DNA of 64,000 nucleotides from Bacteroidota bacterium (GTDB taxonomy: Bacteria; Bacteroidota; Bacteroidia; 2-12-FULL-35-15), in assembly GCA_023251805.1 (NCBI GenBank), contig JAHEYB010000003.1, forward strand, positions 46,249 through 110,248. The letters run 5' to 3'. Below are positions 3,927 to 16,080 of the stretch, piece after piece. A program made the position numbers and the translations under genes. Under the pieces are notes generated by a model. It was not told where the DNA came from, ran no database searches, and saw only the letters and a list, made by a program, of their open reading frames with translations. Within the stretch, counting starts at the first letter, position 1; the number at the start of each line of letters is the position of its first letter.

Positions 3927-5201
3927 TTGCTATCACTCGACCAAATATCAGAAAGCTTTCGGATTGAAATCGATAAAGTTCCAGACTCAATAGAAAAAGT
4001 AAAAATAATTATTGAGTTCACGAACAATTATTTTGATACGATTGGGCCAAGATGCCTGCCATTTTTAAATGAAGCATTAGCCCTTTCAAAAAAACTCAAC
4101 TACAAATCTGGGGAAGTACTTTGTTCATGCAACTTACTATTTTCAAGATACACTAGCAATGACGTATCCAACACTGAAGTAGAAATGAATCGAATAGATT
4201 TAATGCTGAATGAAATCAAGGATGAACCATTTGAATATTCTTACGCACTTAGTTTATTTGCATACTTGCATTGGTTTAGGGGGGAATTCGACAAAGCATT
4301 TGACAGAGCATTTGATGCGCTAAAATTGGTTCATCAACTTAAAGGATTTAAAGAATCGGGCTGGATTTATTATGCACTCGGAGTCTTTTATTTTGACATG
4401 AACGACTTACCGAATTCAAAAATTTATTATTCCAAAGCTGCAGATGCTTTTCGAGAAAACAACTACGACTATGGTGTTGCAAGAGCAATAAACGGAATTG
4501 CGTCCATTAAAATAAAACAAGCAAAAGCTTCAGAAGCAGTACCTCATTTAGAAGTTGCCATCCAAACCTATCGTTTAGGTAATTGTTATGCAGGTTTATC
4601 AAGAGCATTAAACGATTTGGCTTTAGTGCAAAAAGCAGAGAAAAATTATTCCGAAGCGATTAAACTTTTCAATGAAAGTCTAATAATCAGAAAAGAAACA
4701 AATAATATTCAAGGTTTGATTACCACTTTTACTGAACTTGGAGAAATCTATCAATCTTTGGATGATTCAAAAAATGCTTTGTACAATTTAACTGAAGGAA
4801 TTAAATTATCTGAATCAGTTGGTGCAAAATACAAAAGTATTCGTTTGCATAAACTTCTTTCTGACGCTTACAAAAAATTAGATAACATACAATTAGCTTT
4901 TGAGCATTTCGAAAAATTTCATGAGCTTAAATCGCTTGTATTAGGTGAAGAGTCGGCAAACAATATCCGAAAAATGCAAACCAAATTTGAAACTGAAAAA
5001 TCTGAAAAGGAAGCAGAAATAGAACGATTAAAAAATGTTGAACTAAAAAGTGCTTACGATTTAATATCTGAGCAAAAAATGGTACTAGAGGAAAAACAAA
5101 AAGAAATCCTTGATTCCATTCACTATGCCAAACGCATTCAAAGCTCACTCCTACCTACAGACACTTATATTGAAAAGTGTCTGAATAAATATAAAAAATG
5201 A
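3927..5201 (+). CDS. Soluble TPR protein ending in SpoIIE-type linker helix (no phosphatase domain)
   Basis: TTG start 2 nt after the paaZ stop; TPR-like helical repeats, no signal peptide or TM; C-term 'VLEEKQKEILDSIHYAKRIQSSLLPTDTYIEKCLNKYKK*'. Confidence 0.8.
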   Translation: MLSLDQISESFRIEIDKVPDSIEKVKIIIEFTNNYFDTIGPRCLPFLNEALALSKKLNYKSGEVLCSCNLLFSRYTSNDVSNTEVEMNRIDLMLNEIKDEPFEYSYALSLFAYLHWFRGEFDKAFDRAFDALKLVHQLKGFKESGWIYYALGVFYFDMNDLPNSKIYYSKAADAFRENNYDYGVARAINGIASIKIKQAKASEAVPHLEVAIQTYRLGNCYAGLSRALNDLALVQKAEKNYSEAIKLFNESLIIRKETNNIQGLITTFTELGEIYQSLDDSKNALYNLTEGIKLSESVGAKYKSIRLHKLLSDAYKKLDNIQLAFEHFEKFHELKSLVLGEESANNIRKMQTKFETEKSEKEAEIERLKNVELKSAYDLISEQKMVLEEKQKEILDSIHYAKRIQSSLLPTDTYIEKCLNKYKK

Positions 5202-6700
5202 AAAAAAGTATTGCTTTCATACTGCTTTCATTATTTTTTCTTGACATTATAGCTCAAGAAAGTCCTATTGTTGATTCACTTAAAACAAGAATTAAAAAAT
5301 GTAAGACCGATAGCGCACGCTGCTATGAATTGGATGTATTAGCAAAAGAATATATGGATGTAACTCCCGATTCGGGCATCATTTATGCAAACAAATCTCT
5401 TTTCCTTGCAAAAAAAATAAAAAAATATCAATATCAAGTCGATGCCCTAGTTACTCTTGGAATTGTATACCGCGAAAGAGGTGAATACAATAGAGCCATC
5501 GACTCTCTTTTAATCGGGCTAGAAATTGCTAATAAAAATAAACTTGATAATTACTCTTATAAACGCTTATATACAACGCTAAATCTAGCTTATACCGAAC
5601 AAGGGAATTATACTGTTGGCATTGAATATGGATTTAAAGCAATGAAGATTATAGAACAGGAAGGCGACACACTTGCAATGGCCATGTCAAATAATAATAT
5701 TGCAAATACGTACTTTTTAATAAAACAATATCCCAAAGCAATGAAACATTATACCATTGCTTTAAATTATGCAACAGCTCTAAAAAATACATATGGACAA
5801 AGCTTACTAACTGGCAATATCGGAAGCGTTTATTATGAAATGGAAAAATTGGATAGCGCTAAAAAATATTTTGATGAATTTTTGAAACTAACAGAAGAAG
5901 TTGGTGATGTTCAGGGGCAAGGCTTGGCAATGGCCAATTTGGGAAGCTACTACCAAAAAATAAATCAAGGGAAAATTGCTATCGAATACCTTCAAAAAGC
6001 AGAAAAAATATTTGCTGAAATGAAAATGCAGCCGAATTTGGGCGATACATACTACAATTTAGCAACCTGTTATTTGTATCTGAAAGAATATAGAAAATCG
6101 GAATCATATGCGAAATTGTCCTTGGATATTGCCAACAAAATAGGAAGCTATCCTCACAAAGAACAAGCACATCTATCCTTAAAAAATGTATATGAAAAAT
6201 TAAACGATACCGACAAAGCCTATTACCATTACAAAGAATACATTGCAGCGAGAGATTCTATTTTCAACGAAAAAAATAAAAAAGACCAATTTAAAGCTGA
6301 GTTGGTTTATGAATACGATAAAAAAAAGTATGCTGATTCATTGAATCAAGCAGTTTTTGCAAAAATAAAAAATCAAGAATTAAGTATTGAAAAGGAAAAA
6401 ACTCAAACACAAAAAACATTCACTTATATCGCAATTGCAGCCAGCTGTCTATTGCTGATTGTTGCGCTTTATATTTTTATAAGCTACAAGAATAAGCAAA
6501 AGGCCAATAGAATCATTTCTGAACAGAAATATCAAGTGGAACTACAAAAAGAAGAAATAGAATTTCAGAAAACGGTATTGGAAACAAAAAATAAAGCAGT
6601 AACCGATTCTATTTATTATGCTAGTCGCATTCAAAAATCCTTGCTACCTACCGAAAAGTATATCGAAAGGAACTTATCCGAATTAAAAAAAGGTAAATAA
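5198..6700 (+). CDS. TPR-TM sensor ending in SpoIIE-type linker helix (no phosphatase domain)
   Basis: ATGA overlap with previous ORF; signal peptide, TPRs, TM (YIAIAASCLLLIVALYIFISY), C-term 'AVTDSIYYASRIQKSLLPTEKYIERNLSELKKGK*'. Confidence 0.85.
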   Translation: MKKSIAFILLSLFFLDIIAQESPIVDSLKTRIKKCKTDSARCYELDVLAKEYMDVTPDSGIIYANKSLFLAKKIKKYQYQVDALVTLGIVYRERGEYNRAIDSLLIGLEIANKNKLDNYSYKRLYTTLNLAYTEQGNYTVGIEYGFKAMKIIEQEGDTLAMAMSNNNIANTYFLIKQYPKAMKHYTIALNYATALKNTYGQSLLTGNIGSVYYEMEKLDSAKKYFDEFLKLTEEVGDVQGQGLAMANLGSYYQKINQGKIAIEYLQKAEKIFAEMKMQPNLGDTYYNLATCYLYLKEYRKSESYAKLSLDIANKIGSYPHKEQAHLSLKNVYEKLNDTDKAYYHYKEYIAARDSIFNEKNKKDQFKAELVYEYDKKKYADSLNQAVFAKIKNQELSIEKEKTQTQKTFTYIAIAASCLLLIVALYIFISYKNKQKANRIISEQKYQVELQKEEIEFQKTVLETKNKAVTDSIYYASRIQKSLLPTEKYIERNLSELKKGK

Positions 6701-6716
6701 ATATTTGTATCAAAAG

Positions 6717-8213
6717 ATGAAAAAAGTTTTATTATTCTGTTATTTGTTATGCACTCAGTTGCTGTTTGCACAAACAAATATTGGACTAGATACTATCAAC
6801 AGATATGATGCAGTGAAAAGTAAAACTGGAGTATGGCTGGAGGAGGTTGCGCTTGGAATGCGAATTGGAAAGTATGAATCAGGGAAAAGAACAGGCATAT
6901 GGGAAATGTATTCAAATACAGGGAGTTTAATCGGAACCGAAGCATTTATCAATGGAAAAAAAGTAAAAACAAAGGCACTAAAAGCAAAATATAGTGACAA
7001 ATCCTTTCAAAGAAAACTTGAGCTGGTAGATTCCATAACAATAGTTGCTTTGTTTAACAATCAAAAAGACATCCACCAAAAAATATCGGATATAAAACCT
7101 GTAGAAGGAGTAACAACAACAATCTATAGTATAAAACATGGTGTCGTTTCCAAAGAAGCTACATTTAATTCAGGAAATAGTACTGAACAAAAGTTCACAT
7201 TACAAAAAAACACCTACTCTTTAATTACATTTGAAAAACAAGGTTATATTTTGCAAAAAGTACTAATCGATTTCAAAAATATCGATGGATTTCCATCTTA
7301 TATATTACCATGGAAAAAAACAATACCAATAAGGCTAAACGAAAAAGTGAATACAGAGCTCTATTCTCTAAGTTCAATCTTAAATAAACCCAATCAAAAA
7401 TTAAATTTTTCTTTTTTTGATGGTCTTTACGGAGATGCCCGATATAGTTCTTATATCCAGTTTGTTGTAAATAACCTAAAAGCAACTACCAAGGATTCAC
7501 TAATTCAGTATACTGACAACAAGGTTAATCTCACCTTAATAAACGCAAAATCTTCGCTGATAGAAGCAAAATCATCATTAGAATCAAAAGAAAAACAAAT
7601 TAATCAATTAGAGGAAGATAATCTTGTGAAACAAAATGAATTGCTAAAAAAAGAAATGCTTTCACAAGCTAAACAGAAAGAAATTGAACTATTAAACAAG
7701 GATAAAGCATTGCAAAGTTTATACCTAATACAAAATCAGCAAGCGCTCAAGCAAAAGGAGCTGGAGGTTAATAAAAATGAGCAAGAATTAAAAATTGCTA
7801 ACCAGTCAAAAAAAATAAATGAAGAAGAACTGGCTAGAAAAAACTTGGAATTAGGTCATCAAATTGAACTTAAAAATCAGCAAGAAAAGGAATTGCTCCT
7901 TCAGACAAATTTGAAAAATAGTTTGCAAAAGGAAGCTAAGCAAGAGCAAATCATTAAATGGATATTTGGCGGCCTGGCGGTTTTGTTTATTTTGTTTGGA
8001 GCATTTTCATTTAATCGCTTTTTGATAACCAGAAAACAGAAAAAAATTATTGAGTTTAAAAGCATAGAAACAGAAGAACAAAAGGCGATTATTGAAGAGA
8101 AACAAAAAGAAATTTTAGCTAGTATTCACTATGCAAAGCGGATTCAACAATCCTTACTTCCTACTGAAAAGTATATTGAAAGAAATTTAAACGAATTAAA
8201 AAAGGAGAAATGA
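6717..8213 (+). CDS. MORN-like/coiled-coil TM sensor ending in SpoIIE-type linker helix (no phosphatase domain)
   Basis: ATG at 6717 (MKKVLLFCYLLCTQLLFAQ); 'GVWLEEVALGMRIGKYESGKRTGIWEMYSNTGSLIGTEAF' MORN-like unit; long coiled coil, TM, then 'KQKEILASIHYAKRIQQSLLPTEKYIERNLNELKKEK*'. Confidence 0.82.
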   Translation: MKKVLLFCYLLCTQLLFAQTNIGLDTINRYDAVKSKTGVWLEEVALGMRIGKYESGKRTGIWEMYSNTGSLIGTEAFINGKKVKTKALKAKYSDKSFQRKLELVDSITIVALFNNQKDIHQKISDIKPVEGVTTTIYSIKHGVVSKEATFNSGNSTEQKFTLQKNTYSLITFEKQGYILQKVLIDFKNIDGFPSYILPWKKTIPIRLNEKVNTELYSLSSILNKPNQKLNFSFFDGLYGDARYSSYIQFVVNNLKATTKDSLIQYTDNKVNLTLINAKSSLIEAKSSLESKEKQINQLEEDNLVKQNELLKKEMLSQAKQKEIELLNKDKALQSLYLIQNQQALKQKELEVNKNEQELKIANQSKKINEEELARKNLELGHQIELKNQQEKELLLQTNLKNSLQKEAKQEQIIKWIFGGLAVLFILFGAFSFNRFLITRKQKKIIEFKSIETEEQKAIIEEKQKEILASIHYAKRIQQSLLPTEKYIERNLNELKKEK

Positions 8214-9646
8214 AAAAAAATATTTTCTTTTCCATATTAATTGTTTTGTTGTCAAATATCACTTTTGCTCAAAAAAATAAGCGCGACTCCCTCCTTGCAG
8301 TTATTAAAATAACTTCTGTCGATACTAATAAAATAAAAATGCTCACAGCACTTTGTACTGAATATCGAATAAGTGGTGAAATGGACAAAGCTCTTCAATA
8401 CGGAAACGAAGGATTAAAATTAGCAGAAGAACTAAATTGGAAAAAAGGAGAGGCGGAAGCACTTACAAACATTGGTATTGTGCATTGGAGTACTGGAAAT
8501 TACGCCCAAGCATTAAAAAAGTATTTTGATGCATTAAAAATAGATGAAGAACTTGGCGATGAAATCAGAATTGCTACTTTATATGGAAACATCGGATTAG
8601 TGCATTGGAATCAAGGCGATTACCCGAAATCACTTACTTACTATTTTAAATCATTAAAAATAAATGAACGATTAAATAACAAGCAAGCCCAAGCAAAAAA
8701 TATAGCAAATATTGGTAACGTTTATTGGAACCAAGGTGATTTAGAGCAAGCGTTGAATTATTACTTTAAAGCTTTAAAAATTGCTGAAGAAATTGGTGAC
8801 AAAAATGGTGTATGTATCGATTTAGGAAATATCGGACTAGTATACTGGAACCAAGGAAATAATGAAGCTGCCCTAAATTACTATTTTAAAGCTTTAGCCT
8901 TGGCGGAACAATTGGATACTAAAAGTTTAATTTCTGCATGGAAAAGCAATATTGGAAATGCTTACAACTCAATGCATGAATACGATAAAGCTCTCCAGTA
9001 TTATTTTGAATCTTTAAAAACAGATGAAGAATTAGGTGACCAAGCTGGAGTTGCCACAACACTCGGAAATGTTGGCTTACTTTATTTTGACCAAAATAAA
9101 TTCCCCGAATCCAAGAAATACCTTTTAAAAGCATTGGACCTTTCCACTGCAATTGGAGCCATCTATATTCAAAAAGATCATCATCAAAGTCTAAGTAAAT
9201 TATTTGCTAAAACAAACAATTATGAATTAGCACTTATCCATTATAAAAAATACATCGCTGCCAACGACACACTGGTAAACGAAGAGAATGTAAAAAAAAC
9301 TGTGCAGTCACAAATGCAATACGAATTCGATAAGAAAGAATTACAAACCAAAGCTGAGCAGGATAAAAAAGACATACTTGATGATGAAGCCAAAAAGAAA
9401 CAACAAATTATTATTTATTTTATCACCTTCGGGCTGTTTTTGGTGCTCATTCTTGCCTCTGTTATTTTTAGAAGCCTTAAAATAAATCAACAAAAAAATA
9501 AAATTATTTCACAGCAAAAGAATGCGGTGGAAGAAAAACAAAAAGAAATATTGGACAGTATACTATATGCAAGAAGATTGCAAAACTCTTTACTACCCAC
9601 TGAAAAATACATTTCTCAAAGTTTCAATCGTTTAATAAACAGATGA
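8210..9646 (+). CDS. TPR-TM sensor ending in SpoIIE-type linker helix (no phosphatase domain)
   Basis: ATGA overlap; signal peptide; about 40-aa TPR units (NIGxVYWNQGDxxxALNYYFKALKI); TM; 'KQKEILDSILYARRLQNSLLPTEKYISQSFNRLINR*'. Confidence 0.86.
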   Translation: MKKNIFFSILIVLLSNITFAQKNKRDSLLAVIKITSVDTNKIKMLTALCTEYRISGEMDKALQYGNEGLKLAEELNWKKGEAEALTNIGIVHWSTGNYAQALKKYFDALKIDEELGDEIRIATLYGNIGLVHWNQGDYPKSLTYYFKSLKINERLNNKQAQAKNIANIGNVYWNQGDLEQALNYYFKALKIAEEIGDKNGVCIDLGNIGLVYWNQGNNEAALNYYFKALALAEQLDTKSLISAWKSNIGNAYNSMHEYDKALQYYFESLKTDEELGDQAGVATTLGNVGLLYFDQNKFPESKKYLLKALDLSTAIGAIYIQKDHHQSLSKLFAKTNNYELALIHYKKYIAANDTLVNEENVKKTVQSQMQYEFDKKELQTKAEQDKKDILDDEAKKKQQIIIYFITFGLFLVLILASVIFRSLKINQQKNKIISQQKNAVEEKQKEILDSILYARRLQNSLLPTEKYISQSFNRLINR

Positions 9647-11085
9647 AAATAAAATTTTATATACTTATTTTGTTTTTATTTACTATCCAGTTATGTTTCC
9701 CCCAACAGAAAAAGGTGGATTCACTATTACTTGCACTTAAAGCTACCAAAATTGACACTAACAGAGTAAATGTTTTAAATGAGTTGGCTGAAAAAGCTTG
9801 GGGAATGAGCAAATACGATAAGGCCATTCAGTATTCCAAACAATGTTTGGTTTTATCAGACAAATTAGGATATAAAAAAGGTATAGCAAAAGCTTATAAT
9901 ACAATTGGGCTCGTATTAAATTTGCAAGGATATTATGAGGAAGCACTACAAAATCATCAAAAAGCTTTAGCAATCAAAAAACAGTTGGGCGATAAAAAAA
10001 GTTTGTCCATTACATATAATAATATTGGCTTAGTGAATTTTAATCAAGGGAATTATATCGAGGCAGTCAAAAATCATCTTGAGTCTTTAAAATTGAAAGA
10101 AGAAATTGAAGATAAAAAAGGAATTGCGTCCTCTTATATAAATATTGGACTGGTATATAAGATGCAAAACAATCACAAAGATGCTTTAAAAAATTATTTT
10201 GCCGCCTTAAAAATTAATCAAGAAATTGATAACAAAAAATCAATGGCTACTTGCTACAATAATATTGCAAATATTTATTCACTGCAAAAAAAATTCAGTG
10301 ATGCAATACATTATTACTCACTTTCCTTGACAATCAGAAAAGAAATGAATGATAGTAGAGGGATTGGAGGGACTTACTATAATATTGGGTTTATTAATGA
10401 GCAACAGCAAGAGTATAGAAAAGCAATAGACAATTATTTAGCTTCCCTTGAGATTTGTCAAGAAACGGGCGACCTTGAGGGAATTGCAGCATCCTACAAT
10501 TCCTTAGGAAAAATGAGTGCTGAAATACATGAAATTTCGAAATCAAAACAATATCTAAACAAAGGATTGGAAATTTCTAAAAAAATAGGCAGTAAGGAAG
10601 ATATTAAGCAGAGTTACCATGGACTATATCTGACAGATAGTGCTACCGGGGATTTTAAAGCTGCTTACAACAACTATCAAAAGTACATTGGCTACCGCGA
10701 TAGCCTTAAAAATGATGAAAACACGAAAAAACTAGTTCAGTCGCAAATGCAATACGAATTTGATAAAAAAGAGGCTCAAACCCAAGCCGATCAGGAGAAA
10801 AAAGATGCATTAGCTTCAGAAGGTAAGAAAAAAAGGCAAATCACGCTGTACGCTATTAGTGCGGGTTTATTTCTCGTATTAATCTTATCATTAGTGATTT
10901 TCAGAAGTTTACAAACGAATAAAAAGAAAAATAAGATTATATCACTCCAAAAGGACCTTATGGAAGAAAAACAAACGGAAATACTCGACTCCATTAGGTA
11001 CGCAAAGAGAATACAGTACTCATTATTACCTACCGAAAAATATATTGCGAAAAGTTTGAATAGATTAAAAAATGATATAAATTAG
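9643..11085 (+). CDS. TPR-TM sensor ending in SpoIIE-type linker helix (no phosphatase domain)
   Basis: ATGA overlap; signal peptide; TPRs; TM (LYAISAGLFLVLILSLVIF); 'KQTEILDSIRYAKRIQYSLLPTEKYIAKSLNRLKNDIN*'. Confidence 0.86.
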   Translation: MKIKFYILILFLFTIQLCFPQQKKVDSLLLALKATKIDTNRVNVLNELAEKAWGMSKYDKAIQYSKQCLVLSDKLGYKKGIAKAYNTIGLVLNLQGYYEEALQNHQKALAIKKQLGDKKSLSITYNNIGLVNFNQGNYIEAVKNHLESLKLKEEIEDKKGIASSYINIGLVYKMQNNHKDALKNYFAALKINQEIDNKKSMATCYNNIANIYSLQKKFSDAIHYYSLSLTIRKEMNDSRGIGGTYYNIGFINEQQQEYRKAIDNYLASLEICQETGDLEGIAASYNSLGKMSAEIHEISKSKQYLNKGLEISKKIGSKEDIKQSYHGLYLTDSATGDFKAAYNNYQKYIGYRDSLKNDENTKKLVQSQMQYEFDKKEAQTQADQEKKDALASEGKKKRQITLYAISAGLFLVLILSLVIFRSLQTNKKKNKIISLQKDLMEEKQTEILDSIRYAKRIQYSLLPTEKYIAKSLNRLKNDIN

Positions 11086-11089
11086 CCAC

Positions 11090-11803
11090 ATGGAAACAAC
11101 TGCAACTGAAACTAAGAACTTTTTCATCCTTTACAAACCTAAAGATATTGTAAGTGGTGATTTTTACCATGCTATTGCTCACAAGCCAACAGGTAGCAAA
11201 ACAGAATTGTTTTATATGTGTACAGCGGATTGTACCGGACACGGAGTTCCGGGAGCTCTCATGAGTATGGTGGGGATTTCTCATTTAAATGAATCGATTA
11301 TTGAAAAAAATCTCATTCACCCAAATGATATCTTGGATAATATGAGAAAAGGTATCATTGCCTCTTTAAACCCTGAAGGCAGCGAAGAAGAAAGTAAAGA
11401 CGGTATGGATTGCGTACTTTGTGCATATGATTTCGAAAATATGAAATTGGAATTTGCTGCCGCTAATAATCCACTTTGGCTTATCAGAAATGGTGAAATG
11501 CAAGAGTTTAAGCCCGACAAAATGCCTGTAGGTATGTACCACTCTAAAACTGCTCCTTTTTCTTTGCAAACAATTGATTTGAAAAAAGGTGATATCGTTT
11601 ATACTTTTACCGATGGTTATGCCGATCAATTTGGTGGTGATAAAGGTAAAAAATACAAATACAAACAATTACAAGAAAAATTGCTACAAATTAAAGATTT
11701 ACCCCTTAGCGATCAAAAAGGAATTCTTGACAAAGAATTTGAAACTTGGAAAGGTAATTTAGAACAAGTGGATGACGTGCTTATCATTGGAGTAAAAATC
11801 TAA
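11090..11803 (+). CDS. Stand-alone SpoIIE/PP2C-family serine phosphatase core
   Basis: Starts at the domain boundary (FFILYKPKDIVSGDFY); ADCTGHGVPGALMSMVG, DGMD, FTDGYADQFGG and QVDDVLIIGVKI motifs intact. Confidence 0.9.
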   Translation: METTATETKNFFILYKPKDIVSGDFYHAIAHKPTGSKTELFYMCTADCTGHGVPGALMSMVGISHLNESIIEKNLIHPNDILDNMRKGIIASLNPEGSEEESKDGMDCVLCAYDFENMKLEFAAANNPLWLIRNGEMQEFKPDKMPVGMYHSKTAPFSLQTIDLKKGDIVYTFTDGYADQFGGDKGKKYKYKQLQEKLLQIKDLPLSDQKGILDKEFETWKGNLEQVDDVLIIGVKI

Positions 11804-11816
11804 ATTGATACAAAAG

Positions 11817-11850
11817 AAAAGCCCTCTTCGATTTCTCGGGGAGGGCTTTT
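11817..11850 (+). terminator. Rho-independent terminator of the split-sensor operon
   Basis: Perfect 10-bp arms AAAAGCCCTC / GAGGGCTTTT right after the phosphatase ORF. Confidence 0.85.
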
Positions 11851-11876
11851 TATATTCCTATACATATCACCTCTAA

Positions 11877-14000
11877 ATGAAAAATCGGTTTCTCATTTTT
11901 TCTCTTTTTATTTTATCGCATCCCAGTTTTTCTGTGGGACAACAAATTGCTATTGATTCTCTCAAAACACTTCTCAAAACAGAAAAATACGATACAACAA
12001 AAGCTAATATTTTGCTTATTATAGCAGAAACCTCCAGCATTGACACCATTTATCGTGATTACAATCAACAAGCACTAGCTTTAGCCGAAAAAAATATTCC
12101 AATTTCAACCGGAAAAGAACTCAAAGCATTTTTAAGAATAAAAGCAAGTGCATATAATAATATTGGATACGATGAGACAACTCGTGGAAACTTAACCACT
12201 GCTCTTAACTATTATAATCAAAGCCTAAGCATTGAAAAAGAAATAAATAATGTTGCAGATATAGCATATGTACTAAACAACATTGCCGACATCTACGAAA
12301 CACAAGGAAATATTTCAGCAGCAATTAAATATTATGGTGAAAGCTTGAAAATGCATGAAAAAATAAATAATCAAAGGGGCATTGCTCAAGCTTACAATAA
12401 TTTTGGATTTATTTATTGTAATCAAGGTGATTTAGAAAAAGCACTAGATTATTATCAAAAAAGTTTTAAAATAAAAAAAGAACTGAACGACCAATCCGGA
12501 ATGGCTGTTTCGCTTAGTAATATAGGTTATGTATACATGCTTCAAAAACTGGATTACAAGGCTATGTCGTATTATCTGCTAGCACTTAAATCGGCAAAAG
12601 AAATAAATGATAAATTACGAATGGCATTGGTATATAGTAATATTGGAGGAATTTTAGAAAAACAAGGGAATCAAAACGGGGCACTTGAAAACTATACCAA
12701 AGGTTTAAAATTAAGTGAAGAAATTGAAGATGTAGACGGAATTTCTCATTACATGTCTAACCTTGGAGCACTTTATCTTAAAAGAGGTAAAACAGATAGC
12801 GCATTGTATTATGGCAACCAAGCAATGAAATATGCAAAAAGTATTGGTTCTCCCAAATTAATTTGTTTGTCATCCGAATTGCTAAAAAATGCTTACAAAG
12901 AAACTGGAAACACTGCAAAAGCGCTAGAATACTTCGAGCTCTTTTTTAAAATGAATGATAGTATCAATAACGAAGAAACTAAAAAAGCTACCTTCAAACA
13001 ACAACTTAGTTACGAGTACGACAAAAAAGAAACACTCGCTAAGGCGGAACAAGAAAAAAAAGATGTGGAAAATGCTTCTGCAATAAAACGACAACGAATT
13101 CTTACTTGGTCGATTGGCATCGGCCTGTTCATGGTTCTCGTTTTTTCTATTTTTCTTTATAAACGATTTTTGCTCACTCAAAAACAAAAGAAAATTATAG
13201 AGGAGCAAAAAATGATTGTAGATGCGAAAAATACCGAGATACTTGATTCTATTACTTATGCGAAACGTTTACAAGATGCCATTTTACCTCCGATAAAAAT
13301 AATAAAACAGCAATTTCCTCAATCCTTTGTTTTATTCAAACCGAAAGATATAGTAGCCGGTGATTTTTATTGGTTTGAGCAAATTAACGACCTTACTTTT
13401 TTTGCCGCTGCTGATTGCACTGGCCATGGCGTTCCGGGTGCTATGGTAAGTGTTGTTTGCTCAAATGCACTCAACAGAGCAGTGAAAGAGTTCGGGATTA
13501 CCGAACCTGGAAAAATTTTGGATAAAGTCAGAGAATTAGTTGTGGAAACTTTTGTCCGCAAGGACTCCTATGGAGAAAAAAGCGAAACAGATGTAAAAGA
13601 CGGAATGGACATCTCTATTTGTAGCTTCAATAAAAAAACAAATCAATTGAAATGGTCAGGCGCTAACAATCCCCTTTGGCTTATTAGAAATGCAACATTA
13701 ATTGAATACAAAGCCAACAAACAAGCAATAGGAAAAGTAGATGCTCCTATGCCGTTTACCACTCATGCTATAGACGTCCAAAAAAATGATTCCATTTATC
13801 TTTTCACAGACGGTTTCAGCGATCAATTTGGTGGGCCCAAAGGTAAAAAATTTAAGTATGCCCAATTTAAAGATGCATTAATATCCATCCAAATAATCGC
13901 AACCGAAACACAGGCGCTAGAACTAAACAAAACAATAGAAAACTGGAAAGGCCAACTAGAACAGGTTGACGATATTCTAGTGATTGGTATTAAGCTCTAA
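11877..14000 (+). CDS. Full-length TPR-TM-SpoIIE phosphatase
   Basis: 707 aa: signal peptide, TPRs, TM, 'NTEILDSITYAKRLQDAILPPIKIIKQQFPQSFVLFKPKDIVAGDFYWFEQ...DCTGHGVPGAMVS...TDGFSDQFGG...QVDDILVIGIKL'. Confidence 0.92.
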   Translation: MKNRFLIFSLFILSHPSFSVGQQIAIDSLKTLLKTEKYDTTKANILLIIAETSSIDTIYRDYNQQALALAEKNIPISTGKELKAFLRIKASAYNNIGYDETTRGNLTTALNYYNQSLSIEKEINNVADIAYVLNNIADIYETQGNISAAIKYYGESLKMHEKINNQRGIAQAYNNFGFIYCNQGDLEKALDYYQKSFKIKKELNDQSGMAVSLSNIGYVYMLQKLDYKAMSYYLLALKSAKEINDKLRMALVYSNIGGILEKQGNQNGALENYTKGLKLSEEIEDVDGISHYMSNLGALYLKRGKTDSALYYGNQAMKYAKSIGSPKLICLSSELLKNAYKETGNTAKALEYFELFFKMNDSINNEETKKATFKQQLSYEYDKKETLAKAEQEKKDVENASAIKRQRILTWSIGIGLFMVLVFSIFLYKRFLLTQKQKKIIEEQKMIVDAKNTEILDSITYAKRLQDAILPPIKIIKQQFPQSFVLFKPKDIVAGDFYWFEQINDLTFFAAADCTGHGVPGAMVSVVCSNALNRAVKEFGITEPGKILDKVRELVVETFVRKDSYGEKSETDVKDGMDISICSFNKKTNQLKWSGANNPLWLIRNATLIEYKANKQAIGKVDAPMPFTTHAIDVQKNDSIYLFTDGFSDQFGGPKGKKFKYAQFKDALISIQIIATETQALELNKTIENWKGQLEQVDDILVIGIKL

Positions 14001-14070
14001 CATTATTAGAAAATTCCATTTTTTGATATTAGTTTTTTTGTAATAGTTATTGTATATTTATCATGTATAT

Positions 14071-16080
14071 ATGAAAAAACTTTTACTCCTATTTCTTATA
14101 ATTTTTACTCAATTAATTTTCAATATTTGCAGTTCGCAAAATATTGATTCGCTTTGGGGTGTCTATCGTAATGTCAAAATTCCCGATAGCATTCGGCTAG
14201 AAGCATTTAATGATATTGCTTGGAGCTTACTTTATACAAATCCCGACTCCACCTATATTTTAGGACATGAAGAATTGGAGATGTCCAGAGCAAAACATCT
14301 TAAAAAATGTGAAACGAATGCATTAAATACAATCGGTGCATCTTATCAAGTTCGAGGAAATTATATCATGGCCGTTGATTACTATCAACAATGTTTAAAA
14401 ATAAGAGAAGAACAAAACGACTTACGCGGTGTTGCAAAATCATTGGCAAATATCGGAAGTATTTATATTAACATCGAAAATTTTGACAAAGCACTCGAAT
14501 ATCAACTCCGAAGTTTAAAACTTGCAGAGCAACTTGGGAATAAAGAGAGTGCAGCCAGTTCCCTTAATAACATTGGAATCATCTACCATAAGTTTTCAAA
14601 ATTTGAAAAAGCCCTTTACTATAACCAAAGAAGCTTAAAGCTTTATAATGAGTTGGGCGACAAACAAGGAGTTGCTGCTTCATATGCAAATATTGGAAAC
14701 ATCTATTCTTCTTTAAAAGATTATGAAAAAGCGAAGGAGTACCAAACAAAAAGTAATTCCATAAGTATGGAAATTGGTGATAAGCGCGGAGAATCAACAT
14801 CATTAACTGCTTTAGGTATTTCTCGTTTGGCACAAAAAAAATATTCGGAAGCATTAAAAGATTTGATTCGTGCCCAGCAAATTTCAGTTGAGATAAAAGA
14901 CCTTGCTTCTGAAAAAGAAGCTACAAGTGGTTTATATGAAACCTATAAAGCAATGGGCGATAATCTTAAAGCCTTACAAAGTTACGAACGATTTTCTGTT
15001 TTAAAAGACAGCATTTTAAAAGATGATAACCAAAGAAAAATTGCAAATAAAGAATTGGAATATCAATACGAGAAAAAAGTTGCGGCCGACAGTGTTAAAA
15101 ATGAAGAAGAGCGAAAAGTAACACATGCCTTAATTCTTGCAAAAAATGCACAAATTGAACAGGACAATACACAAAAATGGGCCTTATACGGTGGTTTGTG
15201 TTTACTATTGGTTTTCGGTGGATTGATGTACAATAGATTTAGGATTACTATTAAGCAAAAAAATATTATCGAAATTCAAAAACAAAAAACGGAAAAACAA
15301 AAAGAAATTATTGAAGAAAAACAAAAAGAAATTCTTGCTTCTATCTCCTACGCAAAACGTTTGCAAGAAGCAATTTTGCCTCCACACAGTTTAATTAAAC
15401 AACATCTTCCAAATTCCTTTTTCTTTTACAAACCAAAAGACATTGTAGCTGGCGATTTTTATTGGCTCGAAACCGATCAAAAAAATAGCGATGTTTTGTT
15501 GTTTGCAGCCGCAGATTGTACCGGACACGGAGTTCCTGGAGCAATGGTAAGCGTTGTTTGCTCTAACGCTTTAAATAGGACAGTAAATGAGTTTAACATC
15601 ACAAATCCAGGTGATATTTTAGATAAAGTAAGTGAGTTGGTTGTTGAAACTTTTGAAAAAAGTGAAAGTGAAGTAAACGATGGAATGGATATTTCCTTAT
15701 GTAATTTTAATAAGAATACATTGGAATTAAAATGGAGTGGCGCAAACAATCCTCTTTGGATTATCAGAAATAAAACATTAATTGAATACAAACCAAATAA
15801 ACAACCAATTGGAAAAGTGGATGCCCCTACTCCATTTATTACTCAAACTATTCAATTACAAAAAAATGATACTATCTATATTTTTACTGACGGTTATGCC
15901 GACCAATTTGGTGGAGAGAAAGGCAAAAAATTTAAGCTTTCGAGTTTGCAAGATTTATTTTTAGAAAAATGTCAGCTTTCTATGGATCAACAATTAATTG
16001 AAGTAGAAGCCACACTAAAAAACTGGCAAGGCAGTATCGACCAAGTGGACGACATATTAATAATCGGTATAAAGATATGA
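14071..16080 (+). CDS. Full-length TPR-TM-SpoIIE phosphatase
   Basis: ATG at 14071 (MKKLLLLFLIIFTQ); TPRs, TM, 'KQKEILASISYAKRLQEAILPPHSLIKQHLPNSFFFYKPKDIVAGDFYW...DCTGHGVPGAMVS...QVDDILIIGIKI'. Confidence 0.92.
   Translation: MKKLLLLFLIIFTQLIFNICSSQNIDSLWGVYRNVKIPDSIRLEAFNDIAWSLLYTNPDSTYILGHEELEMSRAKHLKKCETNALNTIGASYQVRGNYIMAVDYYQQCLKIREEQNDLRGVAKSLANIGSIYINIENFDKALEYQLRSLKLAEQLGNKESAASSLNNIGIIYHKFSKFEKALYYNQRSLKLYNELGDKQGVAASYANIGNIYSSLKDYEKAKEYQTKSNSISMEIGDKRGESTSLTALGISRLAQKKYSEALKDLIRAQQISVEIKDLASEKEATSGLYETYKAMGDNLKALQSYERFSVLKDSILKDDNQRKIANKELEYQYEKKVAADSVKNEEERKVTHALILAKNAQIEQDNTQKWALYGGLCLLLVFGGLMYNRFRITIKQKNIIEIQKQKTEKQKEIIEEKQKEILASISYAKRLQEAILPPHSLIKQHLPNSFFFYKPKDIVAGDFYWLETDQKNSDVLLFAAADCTGHGVPGAMVSVVCSNALNRTVNEFNITNPGDILDKVSELVVETFEKSESEVNDGMDISLCNFNKNTLELKWSGANNPLWIIRNKTLIEYKPNKQPIGKVDAPTPFITQTIQLQKNDTIYIFTDGYADQFGGEKGKKFKLSSLQDLFLEKCQLSMDQQLIEVEATLKNWQGSIDQVDDILIIGIKI

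Follow-up and report, generated by a model that had tools for sequence, protein, structure and literature searches.

A PP2C phosphatase core lacking its linker helix and a genome-wide set of sensors that end in a conserved linker-like tail

In the current view, bacterial PP2C phosphatases are single polypeptides whose linker helix relays the state of a sensor to the catalytic core. What, then, should be made of a locus in which five consecutive sensor ORFs all end in this linker helix, followed by an ORF encoding a core that lacks it? This arrangement is found in the window, a 64,000-nucleotide stretch of a contig from an uncultured Bacteroidota bacterium (JAHEYB010000003.1, positions 46,249 to 110,248). 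The first-pass annotation had described five ORFs ending at the same point of the linker helix, a subsequent SpoIIE core without the helix and with its metal-binding motifs kept, and two neighboring full-length homologs in the fused order. All of this was confirmed, and the tails read as quoted there. The six plus-strand ORFs are all present, head to tail, with the coordinates listed in that annotation, and their junctions consist of three ATGA overlaps and two gaps of 4 nt. An aldehyde dehydrogenase/hydratase gene flanks the operon upstream, and a strong Rho-independent terminator-like hairpin (11816-11851, plus strand; -24.7 kcal/mol, z -5.1) lies at its downstream end.

Pfam searches identified TPRs in sensors 1, 2, 4, and 5 and no domain in sensor 3. 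Sensor 1 (3927-5201) has no predicted membrane segment, and codons 5115-5198 encode its tail, SIHYAKRIQSSLLPTDTYIEKCLNKYKK, directly before the stop; its TTG start is close to the upstream aldehyde dehydrogenase/hydratase gene, and its true start is uncertain. Sensors 2-5 each have a hydrophobic, signal-peptide-like start and a single membrane segment that lies 60-71 aa before the C-terminus, as judged from hydropathy alone. These are sensor 2 (5198-6700; segment 71 aa before the end, tail codons 6608-6697), sensor 3 (6705-8213, with a probable ATG start at 6717; a coiled coil, segment 68 aa before the end, tail codons 8121-8210), sensor 4 (8210-9646; 60 aa, tail codons 9557-9643), and sensor 5 (9643-11085; 60 aa, tail codons 10990-11082). 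By eye, the N-terminal part of sensor 3 resembles MORN/YwqK-type repeats and is followed by its long coiled coil. All five proteins share the ending SIxYAxRxQxSLLPTxxYI, after which 9 to 12 more residues follow. Pairwise identity is 18-38% in the bodies versus 71-86% in a 21-aa tail window, and judged from these alignments the likeness of the tails is far beyond chance.

The sixth ORF (11090-11803, 237 aa) matches PF07228 (SpoIIE) with an E-value of 5.8e-19 and 69 bits (cut-off 25). Among the operon and its neighbors, this domain was otherwise matched only in a fused full-length TPR-linker-SpoIIE homolog (11877-14000, plus strand), which is outside the split system and used for comparison only, and in a second fused full-length homolog (14050-16080, plus strand, with an ATG at 14071), which was the control for the structure model. 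The metal-site acidic motifs (GDF, DCTGHG, TDG, and DD) are intact in the stand-alone core, and D24, D47, G50-H51-G52, D175-G176, and D228-D229 are invariant across 8 of its orthologs. By domain, motifs, and modeled fold, the ORF is a SpoIIE/RsbU-type PP2C phosphatase core. It starts about ten residues before FILYKPKDIVSGDFY, with the linker helix and sensor located on other ORFs, and thus departs from the architecture of RsbU, RsbP, and SiaA, in which both are on the polypeptide of the core. The window's genome (G000; a 3 Mb draft, about 80% complete) contains 35 SpoIIE domains, one of which stands alone while 34 are part of open frames at least 367 aa long. This is an unusually large set for a draft of 3 Mb, and relatives have up to 50-60. 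Stand-alone and fused cores differ mainly within residues 27-96. The alpha1-alpha2 stretch (residues 53-93) contains 15 of the 28 most discriminating stand-alone-specific sites (p 9e-6), and the W that follows GDFY in 99% of fused cores gives way to Y, H, or F in almost every stand-alone core. In RsbU, RsbP, and RssB, all three of which are controlled by their linker helix, this helix packs at alpha1/alpha2 (PMC12143880).

Many genomes of the class contain orthologs of the stand-alone core (about 60-94% identity), and wherever copy number was checked there was one per genome. In a quick tree of 44 stand-alone and 92 fused cores, built without bootstrap, the stand-alone cores group as a single clade (SH-aLRT 98) that spans eight family groups of the class. 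Since they form one clade, a single split is the most likely history, with multiplication of the sensor half afterwards. A second origin that was apparent in a first, thinner tree disappeared with better sampling, and a candidate re-fusion in G382 (a 1,234-aa protein with a 64% identical core) turned out to be an ordinary fused protein outside the stand-alone clade. Three early-branching stand-alone cores (L261, L264, and L266) share a conserved neighborhood, upstream of what by eye is a putative flavoprotein gene, and have no tail sensor adjoining the core; their genomes contain 16, 1, and 8 matches, respectively, to the relaxed tail pattern described below. The ORFs of the operon abut closely, as would be seen if sequencing frameshifts or decay had broken up fused genes. 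We give this explanation virtually no chance and reject it, since the identical split has been seen in dozens of independent assemblies from eight family groups and is thus not an assembly error, the tails end in a specific sequence under strong constraint, and the stand-alone cores are a single clade.

With the S of SIxYA numbered 0, the tail consensus is IVEEKQKEI[IL]DSIxYA[KR]RIQQSLLPTEKYI[ED]KxLxRLKK, and in 77 of 107 cases the tail ends 28-30 aa past this first S. Its signature residues Y17 (98%), I18 (94%), R24 (76%), and L25 (82%) are absent from fused linkers. The sensors had been called "truncated" in the first-pass annotation, a misleading term because their tails have a conserved end of their own, marked by Y17-I18 and R24-L25. 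Mean identity in the window's genome is 80% in the 21-aa tail window and 23% in the sensor bodies, compared with 56% among fused linkers and 53% between tails and fused linkers. In 15 reciprocal pairs, the tail has a pN of 0.091 and the body one of 0.255 (dS is saturated, and pN alone is quoted). The coiled-coil part, SIxYAxRIQ, is common to tails and fused linkers, and conservation in the tails peaks in the LPTEKYI...RLK part that follows the coiled coil. Some fused SpoIIE proteins in G027, G040, G204, and G347 have LTSxxYI linkers resembling an LT variant of the tail, and because of these linkers the change from LP to LT is, as far as the sequences tell, not specific to tails.

A screen of 58 related genomes with a degenerate DNA pattern for LPxEKY[IL] gave 21 matches in the window's genome versus about 0-2 background matches in most of the others. 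After inspection of the surroundings, this number rose to at least 29 tail-only sensors, 5 inside the operon and 24 outside it. TPRs are present in 25 of these 29, other inputs being 7TMR-DISM and further membrane types, and 28 of the 29 are membrane-anchored according to hydropathy. Multi-pass membrane inputs replace the TPRs in the tail sensors at L115 (1159-1860 and 1857-3134) and L109 (10147-10890), at least one of them of the 7TMR-DISM type, so that one tail is common to different input domains.

The distribution of tails follows that of the core. Among 388 genomes of the class, which are drafts and mostly metagenome-assembled, a strict tail pattern was found in 18 of the 24 with a stand-alone core versus 1 of the 364 without, and in this sole exception (G221) the match is a fused protein. 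The association is highly significant by Fisher's test (p about 6e-25) and when stratified by family (CMH p 4e-8), both tests leaving the full phylogeny unmodeled. Three of the six genomes that have only a core by the strict pattern contain variant tails on inspection (G066, G102, and G319), two have relaxed-pattern matches only, with no confirmed tail (G063 and G216), and one has no tail by either pattern (G229). Within the genus of the window's genome, tails and core are found together in 9 genomes, neither is found in 24, and one occurs without the other in 2, with both exceptions sitting at contig ends. In G003, where there are tails and no core was found, the contig ends at the syntenic place of the core, and G027, a genus member without the core, has 50 or more fused SpoIIE proteins and no tails. 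Among 297 genomes sampled from the phylum, there were no close relatives besides the window's own genome. The first-pass annotation had suggested a survey for tail proteins next to stand-alone SpoIIE domains, and here both the operon association and the tail recur in several families, with tail sensors directly upstream of the core. A relaxed pattern had matches in 21 of 22 further core-bearing genomes, a few of which are already in the class set under a different handle; it was left out of the statistics because fused proteins with LTSxxYI linkers also match it. G423, the genome of L245 (a 4.9 Mb draft), has 95 relaxed-pattern matches, of which the 25 that were sampled are all true tails, and it yielded one stand-alone core. 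Its tail sensors (L359-L366) occur in runs of 3-4, and the sampled tails are mostly of the ALITSEKYI variant.

This distribution bears on two other explanations. Fused SpoIIE proteins are abundant, and since the tails retain the SIxYAxRIQ part of fused linkers, they could pair with many of these proteins as mixed dimers via the linker coiled coils, the stand-alone core being incidental. However, tails are missing from genomes that have many fused SpoIIE proteins and no stand-alone core, tails and core are neighbors in the operon in many families, and tails are far closer to each other than to fused linkers, which makes such pairing quite improbable. We consider it very improbable that the tail is a mere dimerization or stability element, with the sensors signaling by other means and the co-occurrence stemming from shared ancestry. 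Linker helices are indeed coiled coils, and joint inheritance of both genes is conceivable, but conservation is maximal past the coiled coil and the association persists within families and within the genus. In addition, most sensors of the window's genome are unlinked to the core, and therefore linkage alone cannot keep tails and core together.

A structure model of tail plus core gives a further indication of how the two might fit. In one relative (L242), sensor and core are in one frame, three codons (9 nt) apart, and reading the stop as serine, solely as a modeling device, yields a chain in which a few junction residues covalently join the two. The AlphaFold2 model of this read-through chain (pLDDT 81.7, pTM 0.80) comprises a long helix (2-38) and another at 42-53, after which a disordered junction (56-64) leads into the core, which has the PP2C fold with switch helices alpha1/alpha2 at 112-131 and 137-152. 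The fused control (14050-16080; pTM 0.85) has a similar layout with a shorter second helix (2-40 and 44-50), and the junction gap is longer in the split model. In Foldseek searches, the best PDB match of both was SiaA-PP2C (6k4e), with a TMt of 0.86 over 280 columns at an rmsd of 3.2 angstrom for the read-through model and a TMt of 0.90 over 253 columns for the control. The 6k4e structure is traced from residue 407, has two disordered loops, and includes about 35 residues of its own linker (PMC7647112). Its core starts near residue 442 (converted from construct numbering), about 212 of the 246 ordered residues belong to the core, and a TMt of 0.86 is equivalent to about 212 residues. The core alone cannot yield this TMt at an rmsd of 3.2 angstrom, and therefore the linker helix would be superposed as well; this argument, made from scores and not coordinates, indirectly supports superposition of the model's linker helix on that of 6k4e. 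AlphaFold2 knows the family, so it may put any such helix there.

We infer that the locus belongs to a split SpoIIE/RsbU-type system in which the tails most likely dock in trans on the switch helices of a shared core and regulate it. The catalytic core would be a single soluble protein, and the regulatory linker helix (alpha0) would form the C-terminus of many separate sensors, mostly with a TPR domain in the periplasm, a single membrane helix, a coiled coil in the cytoplasm, and finally the tail. A sensor in its signaling state would present paired tail helices, which would dock on alpha1/alpha2 of the core like the covalent linker in fused relatives and set its dimerization and activity at the membrane. 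With all sensors drawing on the single core, their inputs would be summed and in competition. Somewhat less surely, this probably amounts to a PP2C phosphatase with interchangeable regulatory subunits, for which anywhere from a few to about 95 different sensors per genome, each equipped with a detachable activating helix, compete. Sharing of one catalytic subunit in trans by several sensors, by way of the linker helix, had been proposed in the initial reading of the operon, and the co-occurrence, the conservation, the single ancestry of the core, and the compatible model strongly support it; what did not stand is the framing as a five-gene operon, as the sensors are genome-wide and occur in several families. 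Docking in trans could also be real with the tails tethering or inhibiting a default-active core, which a signal then releases or localizes. In line with sequestration, almost every sensor has a membrane anchor (28 of 29 in the window's genome), and one core gene can face a far larger number of sensors (about 95 to 1 in G423). We regard such restraint as unlikely, since in RsbU and RsbP an ordered linker packed on alpha1 activates (PMC12143880) and the core retains the family's alpha1/alpha2 switch region.

Regulation by docked tails would have partial precedents. RsbU, RsbP, and SpoIIE phosphatases belong to the same catalytic family (PF07228, PP2C/PPM) with the same metal-site motifs, and the fused relatives have the same order of sensor, coiled-coil linker helix, and core, whereas in the split system tens of copies of the linker helix are distributed over other polypeptides and the core itself lacks a sensor. 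The nearest solved structure to the split and fused models, SiaA of Pseudomonas aeruginosa (6K4E), likewise combines a membrane sensor with a PP2C core, but as a single polypeptide with one sensor. Single-domain PP2C proteins, RsbX among them, are stand-alone cores of the same fold, and we know of no matching sensor set bearing the missing helix for any of them. In RsbT-RsbU and RsbQ-RsbP, a separate protein acts on the linker and activates the phosphatase (PMC12143880); there, however, the linker stays on the phosphatase, while in the split system it is the separate part. PP2C phosphatases are described as gaining extra domains in evolution, not as using separate regulatory subunits (PMC12088040), and a search of the open literature, with subscription papers and preprints outside its scope, found no split PP2C of this kind. 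A protein cut exactly at the linker joint, with its sensor half multiplied, offers a natural test of whether the helix alone is enough to switch the core. It may also represent a bacterial route to a many-input, one-output phosphatase hub, comparable to chemoreceptors with CheA and to the regulatory subunits of PP1/PP2A, where many input or targeting proteins likewise serve each catalytic subunit, although the proteins are unrelated. If true, a PP2C with interchangeable subunits would integrate signals like a hub, as no described PP2C system does. The tail sequence is in addition a simple means of listing the whole sensor set of a genome.

As for the output, gene content leads us to guess that the likely substrate would be a STAS anti-anti-sigma-like protein, with an RsbW-like kinase acting against the phosphatase. 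The window's genome encodes an RsbW-like protein of 141 aa (E 1.5e-24) and a STAS-like protein of 115 aa (E 5e-6, just under the Pfam cut-off), both unlinked to the operon. A STAS-like protein with an SSG motif is encoded at G000:C47:81842-82057 (L292) and an RsbW-like kinase at G000:C27:27964-28323 (L293), and such a pair is likely the output module for the many SpoIIE phosphatases.
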